A stretch of 34,424 nt of DNA. Source: Deltaproteobacteria bacterium (lineage in GTDB: Bacteria > Desulfobacterota > Syntrophia > Syntrophales > UBA5619). This document shows positions 22,356 through 28,797 of the stretch, piece after piece (within the stretch, counting starts at the first letter, position 1; each line of letters opens with the position of its first letter). The stretch is from positions 1 to 34,424 of the forward strand of contig JAKAFS010000041.1 in assembly GCA_021817825.1 (NCBI GenBank). The letters run 5' to 3'. A program made the position numbers and the translations under genes. Under the pieces are notes generated by a model that saw only the letters and a program-made list of their open reading frames with translations, made no database searches and was not told the origin of the DNA.

Positions 22356-23628
22356 AGCGCAACGCCTCCGCGGGGTCGAGGCGGGAGGCCCGCCAGGAGG
22401 GGTAGATCGTCGAGAGAAAACAGATCAGCATCGTGCCGGCGATGATGACCCCCACGTCGCCGAAGTTGACCTGCGAGGGGAGTTCGCTCAAGTAGTAGAC
22501 ATCGCCCGGCAGGATCTTGAATCCGAAAAGCTTTTCCACAAAGCGGGAGATCCTCTCCAGGTTGAAGGCGACGGCCAACCCCGCGACGGTGCCCGTCAGG
22601 GTGCCGATGGCCCCCACGACGAGCCCCTGGAAGATGAAGATCTTCATGATGCCCACCCGGGTGGCGCCCATCGTTTTCAAGATGGCGATGTCCTTGTTCT
22701 TCTCCATGACGATCATGATGAGGGCGCTGATGATGTTGAAGGCGGCGACCAGGACGATCAGCGAAAGGATGATGAACATGACCCTTTTTTCCAACCTCAG
22801 GGCCGAAAAAAGGTTTTTGTTCATCTCCATCCAGTTGCGCCCCCAGTAGGGGTAGCCCAGCTTCTTCTCGATGGCCTTCGCGATCTTATCGGCTTGGTAG
22901 ATGTCGTCGACGCGGATCTCCAGACCCGTCACCCCCTCGCCCATGTTGAGAAATTCCTGACAGGTCTTCAGGGAGATGTAGGCGAGCGTCGAGTCGTATT
23001 CGTAGAAGCCGGACTCGAAGATGCCGACGACGATAAAGGGCTTCATTCGCGGCACCATTCCCATCGGCGTGGCGATGCCGGTCGGGGAGACGATATGGAC
23101 CGTATCGAAGAGAAAGACGCCCAGGTTCTTGGCCAGTTCGCGGCCGATGACGATTCCCGGGGTTGCCGCCGCCAGATCCGGCCGCCGGCCGGAGAGGTCC
23201 CGTTTGCCTTCTTTCAGGCCCGCAAGGCTTCCCTCCCGGATCTTCCCCAGGTTGATCACCTTCAGGCCGTCTTCCAGCGAGAGGCCCCGCAGGACGATGC
23301 CCGTCACGCTGCTGCCGCTTTTCAGCATCGCCTGGCTGTAAATAAAGGGGGTGGCCGCGACGACGCCTTTGACCTGGGCGACCTCCTTCATCACCGCGGC
23401 GTGGTTTTGCATCCCGCCGCCGTATTCCATGACGATGACGTGGGAGTTGATCCCCAGGATCTTGCTGCGCAGGTCCGTCTCGAAGCCGTTCATGACGGCG
23501 ATGACGATGATCAGCGCCGCGACGCCCAGAAAGATCCCGGCGATGGAGATGAAGGTGATGATGGAAACGAAGACCTGTTTCCGTCTGGCCCGCAGGTAGC
23601 GCAGGCTGGTGAAGAGTTCATAGGGCAT
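22348..23628 (-). CDS. lolC: Lipoprotein-releasing ABC transporter permease, LolC/LolE family
   Basis: A 426-residue inner-membrane permease. It starts [20 protein letters not shown], then a first membrane helix (about 20-48, ending [10 protein letters not shown]), a large periplasmic domain (about 50-265), and a C-terminal FtsX domain with three helices, the last followed by [18 protein letters not shown]. Those ends are diagnostic for LolC/E. ATG 23628 shares one base with the lysS stop (TGATG). Only one permease accompanies lolD, so the complex could be a LolF-like homodimer, or a second permease may lie elsewhere. Frame extension above 23628 is a shadow of lysS. Confidence 0.92.
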
Positions 23629-25160
23629 CACTGATTCGTTTCCATGACCTTCTTTTCTGCCGCTTCCTCCCGGGCGCTCTCCCGGTTTCTCAGGAGCGGG
23701 AAGAGGATGACGTCCCGGATCGACGCCGAGTCGGTGAAGAGCATCACCAGGCGGTCGATGCCGATCCCCTCTCCGGCCGTCGGCGGCATCCCGCATTCGA
23801 GGGCGCCGATGTAATCCTCATCCATTTCGTGGGCCTCCAGATCGCCCGACTCCCGCTCCTTGAGCTGCATCTCGAACCGCCCGCGTTGATCGACGGGGTC
23901 GTTGAGTTCCGAAAAGGCGTTGGCGATCTCCTTCCCGCAGATGTAAAGCTCGAACCGGTCGACCAGGGAGGGGTCGGCGGCGTTCCGCCGCGAGAGGGGC
24001 GAAACATCGACGGGATAGTGGGTGACGAAAGTCGGCTGGATGAGCTGGTGCTCCACCGTCTCGTCGAAGATGGCCATCAGGACCTTCCCCGGCGGATCGC
24101 TTTCCTTGACCTCAATTCCCAGCGCCCGGGCATGGGCGGCCTGCCGGTCGGCGTCGTCGAGCACTTCCGGCGCCACGCCGCCGATCTCGATGACGGCGTC
24201 GCGGACCGTGATCCGTTTCCAGGGAGGCGCCAGGTTGATCTCTTTGCCCTGATAGCGAAGTTCGAGGGAGCCGGAGAGGCTCCGGCTGAGGCCGGCGATC
24301 AGTTCCTCCGTCATCGCCATCAGGTCCTCGTAGGTGGCATAGGCCTGGTAGAACTCCATCATCGTGAATTCGGGATTGTGAAAGGTGTCGATCCCCTCGT
24401 TCCGGAAGCTCCGGTTGATCTCGAAGACCCGTTCCATCCCGCCGGTGATCAGCCGCTTGAGGTAGAGTTCCGGGGCGATCCTTAAAAAGAGGTTCATCCC
24501 CAGGGCGTTGTGGTAGGTCTTGAAGGGACGGGCGACGGCGCCGCCGGCCCGGGGCTGCATCATCGGCGTTTCCACCTCGAGAAAGTCCCGCTCCTCCATG
24601 AAACGGCGGATAAGACTGATGATTTTGCTTCGCTTCTGAAAGACGTCCCGGACCTCGGGGTTCACGATCAAATCGAGATGGCGCTGCCGGTAGCGGATCT
24701 CCACGTCCGTCAGGCCGTGCCACTTTTCCGGCAGGGGGTGCAGCGATTTGGACAAGAGACGGAGGCCCTTTTCTTCCACGTCGATCGTCAGTTCGCCGGT
24801 CCTGGTCTTGAAGACCCTGCCGGCAATCCAGAGGATATCGCCCATATCGAGTTTTTTGAAAAGGGAAAAGGTCTGTTCCCCGACCCGGTCCTTGCGGAGG
24901 AAGGCCTGGAGACGGCCTTTCCGGTCCTGGATGCTGATGAAGGCCCCCTTGCCGAAGTCGCGGACGGCCATCAACCGTCCGGCGAGGGTGAAACGTTCCG
25001 TCATCTTTTCCAGCTCTTCCGGGGGCAGGGCTCCGAACCGCGCGTTGATCGCCGCCGTGGTTTCCCCGACCCGGGAATCGTTGGGATAGAGGTCGATCCC
25101 GTCGGCTTTCAGAGAGTCGATCTTTTCCCGGCGTTTTTTCAGAAGTTCACTTTCTTCCAT
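23628..25160 (-). CDS. lysS: Lysyl-tRNA synthetase, class II
   Basis: 510 residues, the usual LysS length. An OB-fold anticodon-binding domain occupies about 57-150 (FTLAGRLMAVRDFGKGAFISI). The class II catalytic core has motif 1 around FLEVETPMMQ, motif 2 FRNEGIDTFHNPEFTMMEF, and motif 3 GEGIGIDRLVMLFTD. It charges tRNA-Lys in the cytoplasm. ATG 25160 has only a short AGG close upstream. It heads the sixteen-gene envelope operon and shares a base with lolC, so protein synthesis and envelope assembly would be co-transcribed. A possible promoter lies at 25203-25232. Confidence 0.97.
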   Translation of the reverse strand: MEESELLKKRREKIDSLKADGIDLYPNDSRVGETTAAINARFGALPPEELEKMTERFTLAGRLMAVRDFGKGAFISIQDRKGRLQAFLRKDRVGEQTFSLFKKLDMGDILWIAGRVFKTRTGELTIDVEEKGLRLLSKSLHPLPEKWHGLTDVEIRYRQRHLDLIVNPEVRDVFQKRSKIISLIRRFMEERDFLEVETPMMQPRAGGAVARPFKTYHNALGMNLFLRIAPELYLKRLITGGMERVFEINRSFRNEGIDTFHNPEFTMMEFYQAYATYEDLMAMTEELIAGLSRSLSGSLELRYQGKEINLAPPWKRITVRDAVIEIGGVAPEVLDDADRQAAHARALGIEVKESDPPGKVLMAIFDETVEHQLIQPTFVTHYPVDVSPLSRRNAADPSLVDRFELYICGKEIANAFSELNDPVDQRGRFEMQLKERESGDLEAHEMDEDYIGALECGMPPTAGEGIGIDRLVMLFTDSASIRDVILFPLLRNRESAREEAAEKKVMETNQ

Positions 25161-25304: not shown

Positions 25305-26804
25305 TCAGATCGCCTCGTTGGGGTCCTGCTGCCGGATGTAGGCGAGGATTTTCGTCGCCAGCGGCGCATAGGTCTGGACCTTGTTGTAATCGCAGACCAC
25401 ATTGTTCAAATACTGAAGGATCAAGGCGTCCCCGGCCTTTTCCTCGGGCATGATCCCGGCGAAGAAGAAGCCGAGCTTCTCGAATTCGGGCCCCATGAAC
25501 CAGGTGGCGGCATCCTCGAGGGGCAAAAAGAGCTGGACCGCCGCGATCTGCCGGAGGCACAGCTCCCGCAGAATCCGCCGGACCTCGCGAACCGCCTGAG
25601 CCCCGTAACGGACGATCCGGACCTCGGCGCACCCCTCGGGTCCGAAGAGCTCGGTGTCGATCTCCGAAGGTCCTTCCGGCAGCTCCGGCGGGCCCGCAGG
25701 TTCGCTGAAGCGGTGCGCGGCCGAGAGCTCTCCGTAGATTTCCCGGACCAGGTCGCGGTGGGCTGCCGGGACGTAGAGGTCCTTTGTCTCGGGGGGCAAC
25801 AGATACCGGAAGCTCAAGACCACGCCGAGCCGCTGGCTGGTGTCTCCCTCGATCCCCTTGAAGTGCCAGGAGGCGGGACTCGTGGCCAAGAGGATGCCGC
25901 AGTCGGCAAGCCCCATCTTGGTCATGACCTTCTGGGTGAAGAGATGGTTCGTCACCGAGTAGTCGTAGATGCCTTTGAGCGGAACGGGCTTGTCGACCTC
26001 CTGGAGAAAGCGGCAGAGGCGATCCATGCACCCCTGGCCCCGGTATTCGATGTTCACGAAGATGTAGGTCAGCTCGGCGATCCGGCTTCCCTCGTAGGGG
26101 TAGACCAGGGCGCCGTGACCCATGAATTTCCCCTCGGCAGTGACGGCCACGGCGGAGAGCATGTGGCCGGTCCGGTTCATCTCCACGATCTGGTCGGGAT
26201 AATAGATGTAGTCCGTAAAGAAGGTGAAGCCGTGGGAGCGGTAGGCTCCCCGGGAGATTTCGATCGCCTCTTCGGGCGCCATGAGGCGGACCTCGTAGGC
26301 GACGCGCTCCGGCTTGCCCGCCGTCGGCAGCGCGTCCGCGGCCACCTCGGCCACCTTCCCGGGCTGTGCTGCCGGGACCCCCTTGAAATGCTTCACGAAG
26401 CGGGTTTCCTTGCCGCCGGACCCGAGATTCGTGAAGGTCACCTCGTCCATCACCTCCTGCATCAGGAAGATTCCCATTCCCCGGTCCGAGCGGTCGTCGA
26501 AACCGGCCTCGGCGTCGTAGCGGGTCAGCCGGGTGGGATCGAAGGGGAGCCCCTGTTCCCGGATGGACACGCCGATCCCGTCAGGGAGCGGATCGCAGAT
26601 CAGATCGAAGGTCGAGGTCGCGTCGGACTCGAAGGCATGCTCGATCAGGTTGGTCACCGCCTCTTCGATGACCAGATCGAAGCGGTAGAGATCGCCTTCG
26701 GGGCAGCCCCAGATCCGGGCGGATTCCCGGACGAAGAGCTGGGCGATGGGCAGGCAGGAAAGGTCGCTGGGCAGGGTCATTTTCATGGAGCGATTCAGGG
26801 ACAT
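25305..26804 (-). CDS. HATPase (RsbW-like) - GNAT acetyltransferase fusion protein
   Basis: 499 residues from ATG 26804, with GGAGGAAG 7 nt upstream. Residues ~1-140 look like an anti-sigma-type histidine-kinase-like ATPase: N-box EEAVTNLIEHAF (E48, N52), a G1-like segment REQGLPFDP (82-90) and G2 DRGMGIFLM (107-115). The usual Asp of the G1 box is Glu here. A GNAT-like domain follows (about 165-340), with the acyl-CoA loop VNIEYRGQGCMDRLCRF. The last ~130 residues are unassigned. No partner sigma factor, STAS antagonist or phosphatase gene is adjacent. It is divergent from the amidohydrolase across a 343-nt gap. The function is not known to me; a regulatory or protein-modifying role is only inference. 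Confidence 0.72.
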   Translation of the reverse strand: MSLNRSMKMTLPSDLSCLPIAQLFVRESARIWGCPEGDLYRFDLVIEEAVTNLIEHAFESDATSTFDLICDPLPDGIGVSIREQGLPFDPTRLTRYDAEAGFDDRSDRGMGIFLMQEVMDEVTFTNLGSGGKETRFVKHFKGVPAAQPGKVAEVAADALPTAGKPERVAYEVRLMAPEEAIEISRGAYRSHGFTFFTDYIYYPDQIVEMNRTGHMLSAVAVTAEGKFMGHGALVYPYEGSRIAELTYIFVNIEYRGQGCMDRLCRFLQEVDKPVPLKGIYDYSVTNHLFTQKVMTKMGLADCGILLATSPASWHFKGIEGDTSQRLGVVLSFRYLLPPETKDLYVPAAHRDLVREIYGELSAAHRFSEPAGPPELPEGPSEIDTELFGPEGCAEVRIVRYGAQAVREVRRILRELCLRQIAAVQLFLPLEDAATWFMGPEFEKLGFFFAGIMPEEKAGDALILQYLNNVVCDYNKVQTYAPLATKILAYIRQQDPNEAI

Positions 26805-27084: not shown

Positions 27085-27147
27085 TCCGGCGTAATGAACT
27101 TTCCGCAAAAATTTACGATGACATTTTCGAGGGATAAGGGAAAAAGC

Positions 27148-28797
27148 ATGGGCGTTCGCGAACCGGCGGAGATCGTTTTTCGCAACACGGCTATCCATAC
27201 CGCCGATCCGCAGCGGCCCTGGGCCGAGGCCCTGGCCGTGGCGGCCGGGCGGATCGCCTGCGTCGGCGATCAGGCCGACGTGGATCACTGGATCGGGCCC
27301 GCGACGGAGCTCTTCGACCTGCCCGGGAAGCTGGTCCTGCCCGGGTTTCGCGACAGTCACATCCATCCCCTGGCCGGAAGCTTCAACCTCCTGGAATGCC
27401 GCCTGGTCGGTCCGGCCGACGCCGCCTCCTACCTCACGCAAATCCGGGCCTACGGCCGGGCGAACGGGGATCAGCCCTTCCTCCGCGGCGGCGGCTGGCA
27501 GCCCGACGCCTTTTCTTCCCACGGCCCCGACCGCAAGGCGCTCGATGCCGTCGTTTCCGACCGGCCCGCGCTCCTGAAGTCCCTGGACGGCCACAGCGCC
27601 TGGGTGAACAGCCGGGCGCTGGAAATGGCCGGGATCGGGAAGGGTAGCCCCGATCCTCCCGGCGGCCTCATCGTCCGGGACCCCGTCACCGGGGAGCCCA
27701 CCGGGACGCTGCGGGAATGGTCGGCCATGGATCTGGTGGAAGCGAGGCTGCCGAAGCCGGCGGTACGGGACCTGGTGACGGCCGGCTGGGCCTTCCTGGA
27801 GAGGGCGGCCCGGCTGGGCATCGTCTCGGTCCATGAAGCCATGGCCGGGGAGGCGGAACTGGCCGCTTACCGGGAGCTCGAACGGAGCGGCGAACTCACC
27901 CTGCGGGTCCAGGCCGCCATGCTCTGCGAGCCGCCGGGGGGGGAAGAGGCCGTTCACCGTCTCGTTCGCATGCAGCGGGAATTCCGGGGCAGGCTGCTTG
28001 CGCCCCAGGCGGTAAAGATCTTTCTCGACGGCGTCGTGGAGGGGCACACGGCCCGACTCCTTTTTCCCTACGCGGACCGGCCCGGGTTCCGGGGGGAACT
28101 GCTCTGGACGCCCGCAGATCTCGACCGGACGGTCCGGGCCCTCGACCGGGCGGGCCTACAGATCCATTTCCACGCCATCGGGGACGGCGCCGTCCGCCTG
28201 GCCCTCGATACCCTGGAGAAGAACCTGAAAACCGGGGGGCGACGCAACGGCCGCCACCTGATCGCCCACTGCGACCTGGTGGACGCCGCGGACATTCCGC
28301 GCTTCGGTACGCTGGGCGTCACGGCCGTCCTTCAGCCGGCCTGGTTTTACCGGGAGGCGAACTTTGACCGGACGGCCCTTCCCTTTTTGGGCCGGCAACG
28401 GGCCTACGGCCTCTATCGGATGCGGACGCTCCTTGCCGCCGGAGGGGCCGTCGCCTGCGGCAGCGACTGGCCCTTCAGCGGCGAACTCAACACCTTCAAT
28501 CCTCTGGATTCCATCCAGGTGGGCGTCACCCGGGCAGGCCTCGACGCCGATCCGGAGCAACCCTACCTGCCCGAGGAGCGCCTGGAACTGTCCACCCTGA
28601 TCGACGGCTTCACCATGGCCGGCGCCCGGGCCGATTTTCAGGAAGCGATCACCGGGTCGCTCACCGCCGGCAAGTCGGCGGATCTGGCGGTGCTGGACCG
28701 GAATCCTTTTCACCTTCCCGCAGAAGAGATCTCCCGCGCCCGGGTCCTTTTGACCCTCTTTGCGGGGCGGACCGTCTTTCGCGCCGATTCCCTCTGA
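27148..28797 (+). CDS. Amidohydrolase family 3 protein (YtcJ-like)
   Basis: A 549-residue metal-dependent hydrolase. The N-terminal beta-sandwich carries NTAIHTADPQRPWAEALAV and GRIACVGD. The metal site begins at VLPGFRDSHIHPL, followed by HFHAIGDGAV, LIAHCDLVD and the Asp of CGSDWPFSG. The C-terminal GSLTAGKSADLAVLDRNPF closes the sandwich. ATG 27148 is chosen because AAGGG lies 8 nt upstream; in-frame ATGs at 27094 and 27118 lack a Shine-Dalgarno. Members of this family hydrolyse diverse amides and esters and their substrates are rarely known; none can be assigned here. There is no signal peptide, so it is cytoplasmic. Codon use is strongly GC-rich. Confidence 0.88.
   Translation: MGVREPAEIVFRNTAIHTADPQRPWAEALAVAAGRIACVGDQADVDHWIGPATELFDLPGKLVLPGFRDSHIHPLAGSFNLLECRLVGPADAASYLTQIRAYGRANGDQPFLRGGGWQPDAFSSHGPDRKALDAVVSDRPALLKSLDGHSAWVNSRALEMAGIGKGSPDPPGGLIVRDPVTGEPTGTLREWSAMDLVEARLPKPAVRDLVTAGWAFLERAARLGIVSVHEAMAGEAELAAYRELERSGELTLRVQAAMLCEPPGGEEAVHRLVRMQREFRGRLLAPQAVKIFLDGVVEGHTARLLFPYADRPGFRGELLWTPADLDRTVRALDRAGLQIHFHAIGDGAVRLALDTLEKNLKTGGRRNGRHLIAHCDLVDAADIPRFGTLGVTAVLQPAWFYREANFDRTALPFLGRQRAYGLYRMRTLLAAGGAVACGSDWPFSGELNTFNPLDSIQVGVTRAGLDADPEQPYLPEERLELSTLIDGFTMAGARADFQEAITGSLTAGKSADLAVLDRNPFHLPAEEISRARVLLTLFAGRTVFRADSL

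Follow-up and report, generated by a model that had tools for sequence, protein, structure and literature searches.

An RsbW-type ATP-binding domain fused to a GNAT module in the Desulfobacterota: a candidate partner-switch-gated acyltransferase predicted from domains and gene context

The window, a 34,424-nucleotide stretch of DNA from a deltaproteobacterium of the order Syntrophales, carries a gene for a protein (P0001) that combines, in one chain, an RsbW-type ATP-binding domain and a GNAT module, the latter comprising, in the predicted structure, a complete GNAT fold followed by a GNAT-like half. The fusion of HATPase and GNAT domains recurs through the window's phylum and is not a lone oddity, and part of the family shows genetic linkage of its GNAT modules to STAS, HATPase and SpoIIE genes. 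Based on its domains and gene context, P0001 is predicted, with somewhat better than even confidence, to be a partner-switch-gated acyltransferase. Most likely, the HATPase would be a protein-interaction switch that gates the GNAT module through STAS binding and phosphorylation. Its catalysis, substrate, STAS partner, use of ATP and direction of control are what we infer from these data.

Domain architecture of the fusion protein

The initial annotation had described a single 499-residue chain joining an anti-sigma-type ATPase to a GNAT domain, and this was borne out by the open reading frame (minus strand, start codon ATG at position 26804), by Pfam and by the predicted fold. The motifs on which it was based, the N-box EEAVTNLIEHAF, the G2 box DRGMGIFLM and the acetyl-CoA-loop-like segment VNIEYRGQGCMDRL, are all present in the chain. 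A domain search and a structure prediction, which had been proposed as checks, both agree with it: the two domains score above their Pfam cut-offs (GNAT barely so), and the predicted structure supports an RsbW/SpoIIAB-like ATPase plus a complete GNAT fold. The AlphaFold model, made with a 13-sequence alignment, has a mean pLDDT of 82.1 and consists of three parts and a linker (Table 1).

Table 1. Features of the fusion gene and its divergent neighbor, with positions in the window
Feature	Position	Strand	Remarks
HATPase-GNAT-GNAT-like fusion gene (P0001)	25305..26804	-	499 aa + stop; homologues along entire length elsewhere
HATPase_c_2 (RsbW/SpoIIAB-type) domain, residues ~7-139	26388..26786	-	N-box E48/N52, G1 E83, G85, G2 G109/G111
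Low-confidence linker, residues 143-164	26313..26378	-	pLDDT < 50
GNAT domain, residues ~168-341	25782..26303	-	R-G-Q-G loop (255-258) between strand and helix 259-269
C-terminal GNAT-like part-domain, residues ~342-475	25380..25781	-	by eye without acetyl-CoA loop
Divergent neighbor, Amidohydro_3 family protein	27094..28797	+	relatives just downstream, same strand, of 8 fusion genes

Full-length relatives in other genomes are 71, 52 and 51% identical to P0001, and homologues spanning its entire length rule out a chance motif or a wrong frame. That two genes were joined artificially, by assembly or gene calling, is likewise ruled out by open fused frames in many genomes, and is also contradicted by the single split between fused and unfused forms on the trees (see below). 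P0001 matched no Pfam or NCBIfam family over its full length. A role in anti-phage defence was considered and rejected, as neither P0001 nor the one unfused module searched with it matched PADLOC at E 0.01.

The HATPase_c_2 profile (PF13581) matches residues 12-138 over profile positions 2-127 of 127 (E=3.4e-21, 76 bits versus a cut-off of 27.4), establishing membership in this family, and structural alignment of the predicted model places residues ~3-141 with SpoIIAB and RsbW structures at Z 17-18. P0001 shares with RsbW and SpoIIAB (PDB 6m37, 1th8 and 1l0o) the HATPase fold (Z about 18 over 115-131 residues), the N-box and the G2 box; it differs from them in its fused GNAT module, in the Glu at G1 and in falling below the RsbW and SpoIIAB family cut-offs. 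Domains that align with the P0001 HATPase are also found within the longer chains of Rv1364c, which has RsbU and RsbW domains (PDB 3ke6, Z 15.2), and, by fold alignment, of the response regulator LvrC (PDB 9qih, Z 15.5). However, the titles of these structures set them apart, as they refer to a phosphatase domain or to response regulators, and name no acyltransferase.

The replacement of the G1 Asp by Glu, pointed out by the initial annotation, is real (E83, within SIREQGLPFDP) but not peculiar to P0001. Among 68 fused relatives, this position is occupied by Asp in 39 and by Glu in 21 (Asp or Glu in 60/68), so the Glu is shared by part of the fused clade, and its standing as a special feature is weakened. 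E48 is retained in 61/68 fused forms, N52 in 54/68 and G109 in 52/68; key residues seem to have been lost from many fused HATPases, although part of this loss may reflect misalignment.

The Pfam model Acetyltransf_1 matches residues 213-269 with a score barely above the cut-off (E=3e-4, 21.5 bits versus 20.7). This weak call is strengthened by the predicted structure, in which residues ~168-341 match GNAT enzymes with Z about 13-14, mostly over 140-165 residues. Both the fold and the acetyl-CoA pyrophosphate loop (R-G-Q-G-C before helix 259-269) place the domain in the GNAT superfamily. In the fused and unfused forms, respectively, R255 is retained in 67/68 and 97/102, H287 in 67/68 and 96/102, Q291 in 68/68 and 101/102, and E244 in 60/68 and 101/102. 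Near fixation of these four residues suggests a conserved active site. R325 is also conserved in the domain, and G258 of the acetyl-CoA loop is less constant (56/68 fused, 75/102 unfused). One unfused module, that of locus L127, gave no Pfam match at E 0.001.

The remaining ~130 residues, left unassigned by the initial annotation, now have an assignment: the tail is predicted to be a GNAT-like part-domain. The C-terminal 164 residues, modelled alone with 55 sequences, reached a pLDDT of 95.8. The Foldseek matches listed for the tail are GNAT enzymes, the top one (E 2e-4) being the only listed match below 0.001, and in most matches listed, 82-98 residues align with part of the GNAT fold. In a second structural comparison, the best 18 matches had Z about 8-9 over 82-91 residues, about half of the tail, and among these 18, plant NUDT7, human NUDT6 and antizyme fragments scored level with or slightly above the GNAT enzymes; because of this, the term "GNAT-like half" is a statement about the fold only.

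Distribution of fused and unfused forms

A match at 1e-10 was obtained in 17 of 61 genomes, the window genome included. When a 13-row profile was used at 1e-20, 52/155 genomes of the window's order and 83/395 genomes sampled from its phylum were matched, both counts including genomes that have stand-alone HATPase matches only. Besides P0001, the window genome itself encodes one full-length relative at 33% identity, two proteins that match the HATPase part and stand alone, and four that are related to the GNAT-plus-tail part only.

From the fetched regions, 170 GNAT-plus-tail frames were extracted, 68 fused to a HATPase and 102 unfused, the latter forming a sister clade of ~340-aa proteins composed of GNAT and tail. 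Fused and unfused forms are parted by one change, both on the FastTree tree of all 170 and on the IQ-TREE tree of 74, in which the separating branch has an SH-aLRT of 100. Either one fusion or one split would be the simplest history. At one locus (L158:5646-9773), four unfused GNAT-plus-tail genes are arranged in tandem on one strand.

Searches beyond the window's phylum consisted of one peptide-pattern scan and a tblastn search of plasmids. The scan of genome contigs yielded a single match (L035), apparently the same as L009 of the window's genus. Spread by plasmids was considered and set aside: the plasmid search returned two matches, both partial, confined to the HATPase part and short of 80% query coverage.

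Partner-switching and other neighboring genes

The fetched regions were searched with home-made profiles for STAS, SpoIIE, HATPase and GNAT-plus-tail, and 1054 other genes of the same regions, located more than 1.2 kb away, served as the background. Six of the regions contributing to it (L041, L042 and L066-L069) had been fetched for stand-alone HATPase matches, which raises the background and thereby makes the linkage test stricter. Chance linkage to STAS and HATPase genes was rejected against this background: 9/102 unfused loci have both genes on their strand at distances of up to 1.1 kb, versus 6/1054 background genes. A same-strand STAS gene within 600 nt was found at 10/102 unfused loci versus 7/1054 (p=2e-7), and a same-strand HATPase gene within 620 nt at 11/102 versus 6/1054 (p=1e-8), these p-values treating related loci as independent and thus overstating independence.

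The nine unfused loci (L058, L127, L129, L131, L132, L133, L134, L162 and L164) have the order GNAT, STAS, HATPase, and in six of them (L058, L127, L129, L133, L134 and L162) a SpoIIE gene is also present within about 3.2 kb. The full partner-switching module (HATPase, STAS and PP2C/SpoIIE together) is found for part of the family only, in L127 and L129 by Pfam, which confirms STAS, HATPase_c_2 and SpoIIE with Cache and HAMP domains, in the other four by home-made profiles, and also at the fused locus L199 described below. Two further loci (L128 and L130) have HATPase and SpoIIE genes, with no STAS match to these profiles. An NMT1-like gene is common to L058, L127, L129 and L133, and is confirmed by Pfam in L127. 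Among the rows from the fetched regions, the SSxGL serine motif is retained in 25/26 STAS sequences, and the SpoIIE sequences carry GGD in 20/21, DDx(S/T) in 21/21 and the narrow DVxGHG motif in 4/21.

Taken over the whole family, 13/102 unfused and 8/68 fused loci have at least one STAS, canonical HATPase or SpoIIE gene on the same strand no more than 1.1 kb away; the other 89/102 and 60/68 have no such partner-switch gene in this range, some contigs ending nearby. Related though the loci are, the partner-linked label requires 8 changes in the unfused group and 4 in the fused group on the 170-row tree. For the fused loci, a STAS, SpoIIE or second HATPase gene within 1.1 kb (8/68) compares with 21/1054 in the background (p=2e-4) and a SpoIIE gene within 600 nt (4/68) with 9/1054, and neither STAS alone (2/68, p=0.099) nor HATPase alone (2/68, p=0.08) is significant.

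The order is STAS-HATPase-fusion in L135 and L176; in L173 the fusion is followed by a 406-aa gene starting with STAS; and in L199 it is followed by STAS, a weak HATPase (61 bits) and SpoIIE, with STAS and SpoIIE recognized by Pfam. Four relatives of the window gene (L043, L204, L244 and L245) have a SpoIIE gene directly upstream and an amidohydrolase gene downstream. By Pfam, L043 reads CheW, CheR, CheW, CheA, CheB, REC-SpoIIE, fusion, Amidohydro_3. L244 and L245 both read CheA, CheB, REC-SpoIIE, fusion, amidohydrolase (the Pfam runs for L244 covering its CheA, CheB and REC-SpoIIE), and the REC-SpoIIE of L245 is 78% identical to that of L043. L204, cut by a contig end, retains SpoIIE, fusion and amidohydrolase. 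The REC-SpoIIE proteins of L043 and L244 score 116 and 105 of 700 bits with the RssB model, far below the cut-off, and owing to this likeness their mode of action might be binding and not dephosphorylation.

The window gave no STAS or SpoIIE match with the home-made profiles. The earlier remark that no antagonist is encoded nearby thus holds for the window but not for the family as a whole. Elsewhere in the window genome, STAS-HATPase pairs are located on contigs C46 and C60, STAS matches on C60, C46, C113 and C87, and SpoIIE matches on C161 and C29. The amidohydrolase next to the window gene is 62% identical to that of L043, and its relatives occur in the regions of 9/15 members of the window gene's subclade, in 8 just downstream of the fusion. 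The gene is divergent in the window and in the 71% identical orthologue L009, which lies outside the 15-member count. Given the operon order in the subclade and the divergent amidohydrolase, the window gene may have belonged to a chemosensory/partner-switch operon and have been relocated, keeping its amidohydrolase neighbor. On the other side of the fusion gene, a lysyl-tRNA synthetase (lysS) look-alike, judged by eye, is found ~145 nt downstream (23628-25160, minus strand), and the two may be co-transcribed.

Transporter genes recur as well: one MFS cluster lies within 3.5 kb of 37 unfused loci and 1 fused locus (its L129 member is MFS by Pfam), and another, MFS by eye, is near 8 fused loci. 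The partner-switch genes of L129 are accompanied by genes that family searches recognize as a HisC-type aminotransferase, an MFS protein and a molybdenum hydroxylase. One recurrent locus (L040:6227-10940, L062:7027-11677, L060:6204-10897 and L065:6062-10849) combines an unfused GNAT-plus-tail gene with genes for an apparently HisC-like aminotransferase, an MFS-like protein and a ~440-aa protein whose HATPase-like N-terminus is decayed; the L040 copy of the ~440-aa protein has no Pfam or NCBIfam match.

Proposed mechanism, alternatives and relation to known systems

In the mechanism we propose, the HATPase domain would bind ATP and a STAS protein and would phosphorylate the latter, and this phosphorylation would be undone by a SpoIIE phosphatase controlled by Cache or response-regulator input. 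Whether STAS is bound to the HATPase or not would gate the GNAT domain, which would transfer an acyl group to a protein or a small molecule. At the unfused sister loci, separate genes would supply these components, with the signal presumably passing from STAS to GNAT by protein contact, and in the fused clade it would pass within one chain. In the window genome, the STAS (C46, C60) and SpoIIE (C161, C29) partners would act in trans. The broader proposal, that the family represents a branch of partner switching with an acyltransferase output, in which Cache-SpoIIE or chemosensory/REC-SpoIIE signals would reach GNAT through STAS and set protein or metabolite acylation, is a tentative one, to which we give somewhat less than even weight. 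The link between nucleotide-dependent partner switching and acylation suggested in the initial annotation has gained from the domain anatomy and from the neighborhoods of fused and unfused genes, the acylation itself being what we infer.

Several observations count against a gated acyltransferase: the window has no STAS or SpoIIE gene, most loci have no partner genes nearby, the Pfam GNAT score is marginal, HATPase residues appear to have been lost in many fused forms, and DVxGHG is found in so few SpoIIE sequences. Moreover, the amidohydrolase and MFS neighbors fit a metabolic enzyme equally well. The GNAT domain might then acetylate a small molecule handled by these genes, with the HATPase being structural or vestigial, as the loss of HATPase residues in part of the fused clade would allow. 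However, the window HATPase retains E48, N52, G85, G109 and G111, the acidic G1 residue is kept in most fused forms, and the linkage to STAS, HATPase and SpoIIE genes would be left unexplained, all of which makes a purely metabolic role quite unlikely.

That linkage would be explained equally well if the GNAT domain were a sensor, binding acyl-CoA or acyl-ACP non-catalytically or as a slow timer, with the ligand controlling the HATPase kinase and with STAS or its target, instead of acylation, as the output. The second GNAT-like half, which shows no acetyl-CoA loop by eye and is already non-canonical, and the inconstant G258 are in line with such a sensor. Yet the near-fixed H287, Q291 and R255 (and, nearly so, E244) are more easily explained by an active site, and most unfused modules lack a same-strand canonical HATPase gene at a distance of up to 1.1 kb; we therefore regard the sensor as unlikely. 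It is highly improbable that P0001 is an anti-sigma factor whose HATPase sequesters a sigma factor like RsbW or SpoIIAB, with the GNAT as an accessory, even though the best-scoring solved structures include the SpoIIAB-sigmaF and RsbV-RsbW complexes. P0001 remains far below the NCBIfam equivalog cut-offs for RsbW (46.1/145 bits for NF003144 and 37.8/155.05 for TIGR01924) and SpoIIAB (30.3/135 bits for TIGR01925), and no sigma-factor gene was seen among the recurrent neighbor clusters, read by eye.

Regulated GNATs (PMC6434083) and partner switches with other outputs (PMC8256260) are already known, as described in the excerpts of these sources. The class I-beta protein acetyltransferases covered in the excerpt of the former include the cAMP-binding MtPat/MsPat, the NADP-sensing MxKat and the ACT-domain AAPatA. 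As in P0001, their GNAT domain carries a fused regulatory domain; whereas theirs binds a small molecule, that of P0001 is RsbW-type and ATP-binding, and a GNAT-like half follows the GNAT domain (PMC6434083). By the HATPase-GNAT order, P0001 has the class I-beta feature of a regulatory domain fused to a GNAT, the regulation by the HATPase being putative. Gram-negative partner switches include V. fischeri SypA, R. capsulatus RbaV and Bordetella BtrU/BtrW, in which the switching is STAS-centred and the output is unknown or outside the classic sigma factor (PMC8256260, excerpt); the excerpted text of this review names no GNAT partner, and "acetyl" occurs 0 times in the review.

No account of a HATPase-GNAT fusion or of a GNAT-STAS-HATPase operon was found among the papers listed by searches of the open-licence PMC literature, and nothing on the fusion was found in the literature on acylation in syntrophs. 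Small molecules (cAMP, NADP, amino acids) control the GNATs in the excerpt of PMC6434083. If the partner-switch-gated reading is true, a GNAT controlled by a phosphorylation-dependent protein switch would bring acylation and serine phosphorylation together in a single pathway. The split operons would provide ready three- or four-protein sets (GNAT, STAS, HATPase and SpoIIE), of which the fused gene would be the one-polypeptide version.

Other genes of acyl metabolism were seen near members of the family. Unfused GNAT-plus-tail genes lie beside acyl carrier protein look-alikes, judged by eye, at three loci (L039:6676-9534, L059:6146-9222 and L061:4052-5282), and in L039 and L059 acyl-AMP ligase look-alikes, also by eye, adjoin them as well; the acyl donor of some GNAT-plus-tail proteins may be acyl-ACP. 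At L045:5198-7072, a fused gene is preceded, at a distance of about 10 nt, by the gene for a CoA-transferase to which Pfam assigns a C-terminal GNAT domain; the nearest NCBIfam model for this protein is butyryl-CoA:acetate CoA-transferase, below the cut-off. A by-eye look-alike of this CoA-transferase is encoded in the window genome near a STAS-HATPase pair (L042:1319-3190).
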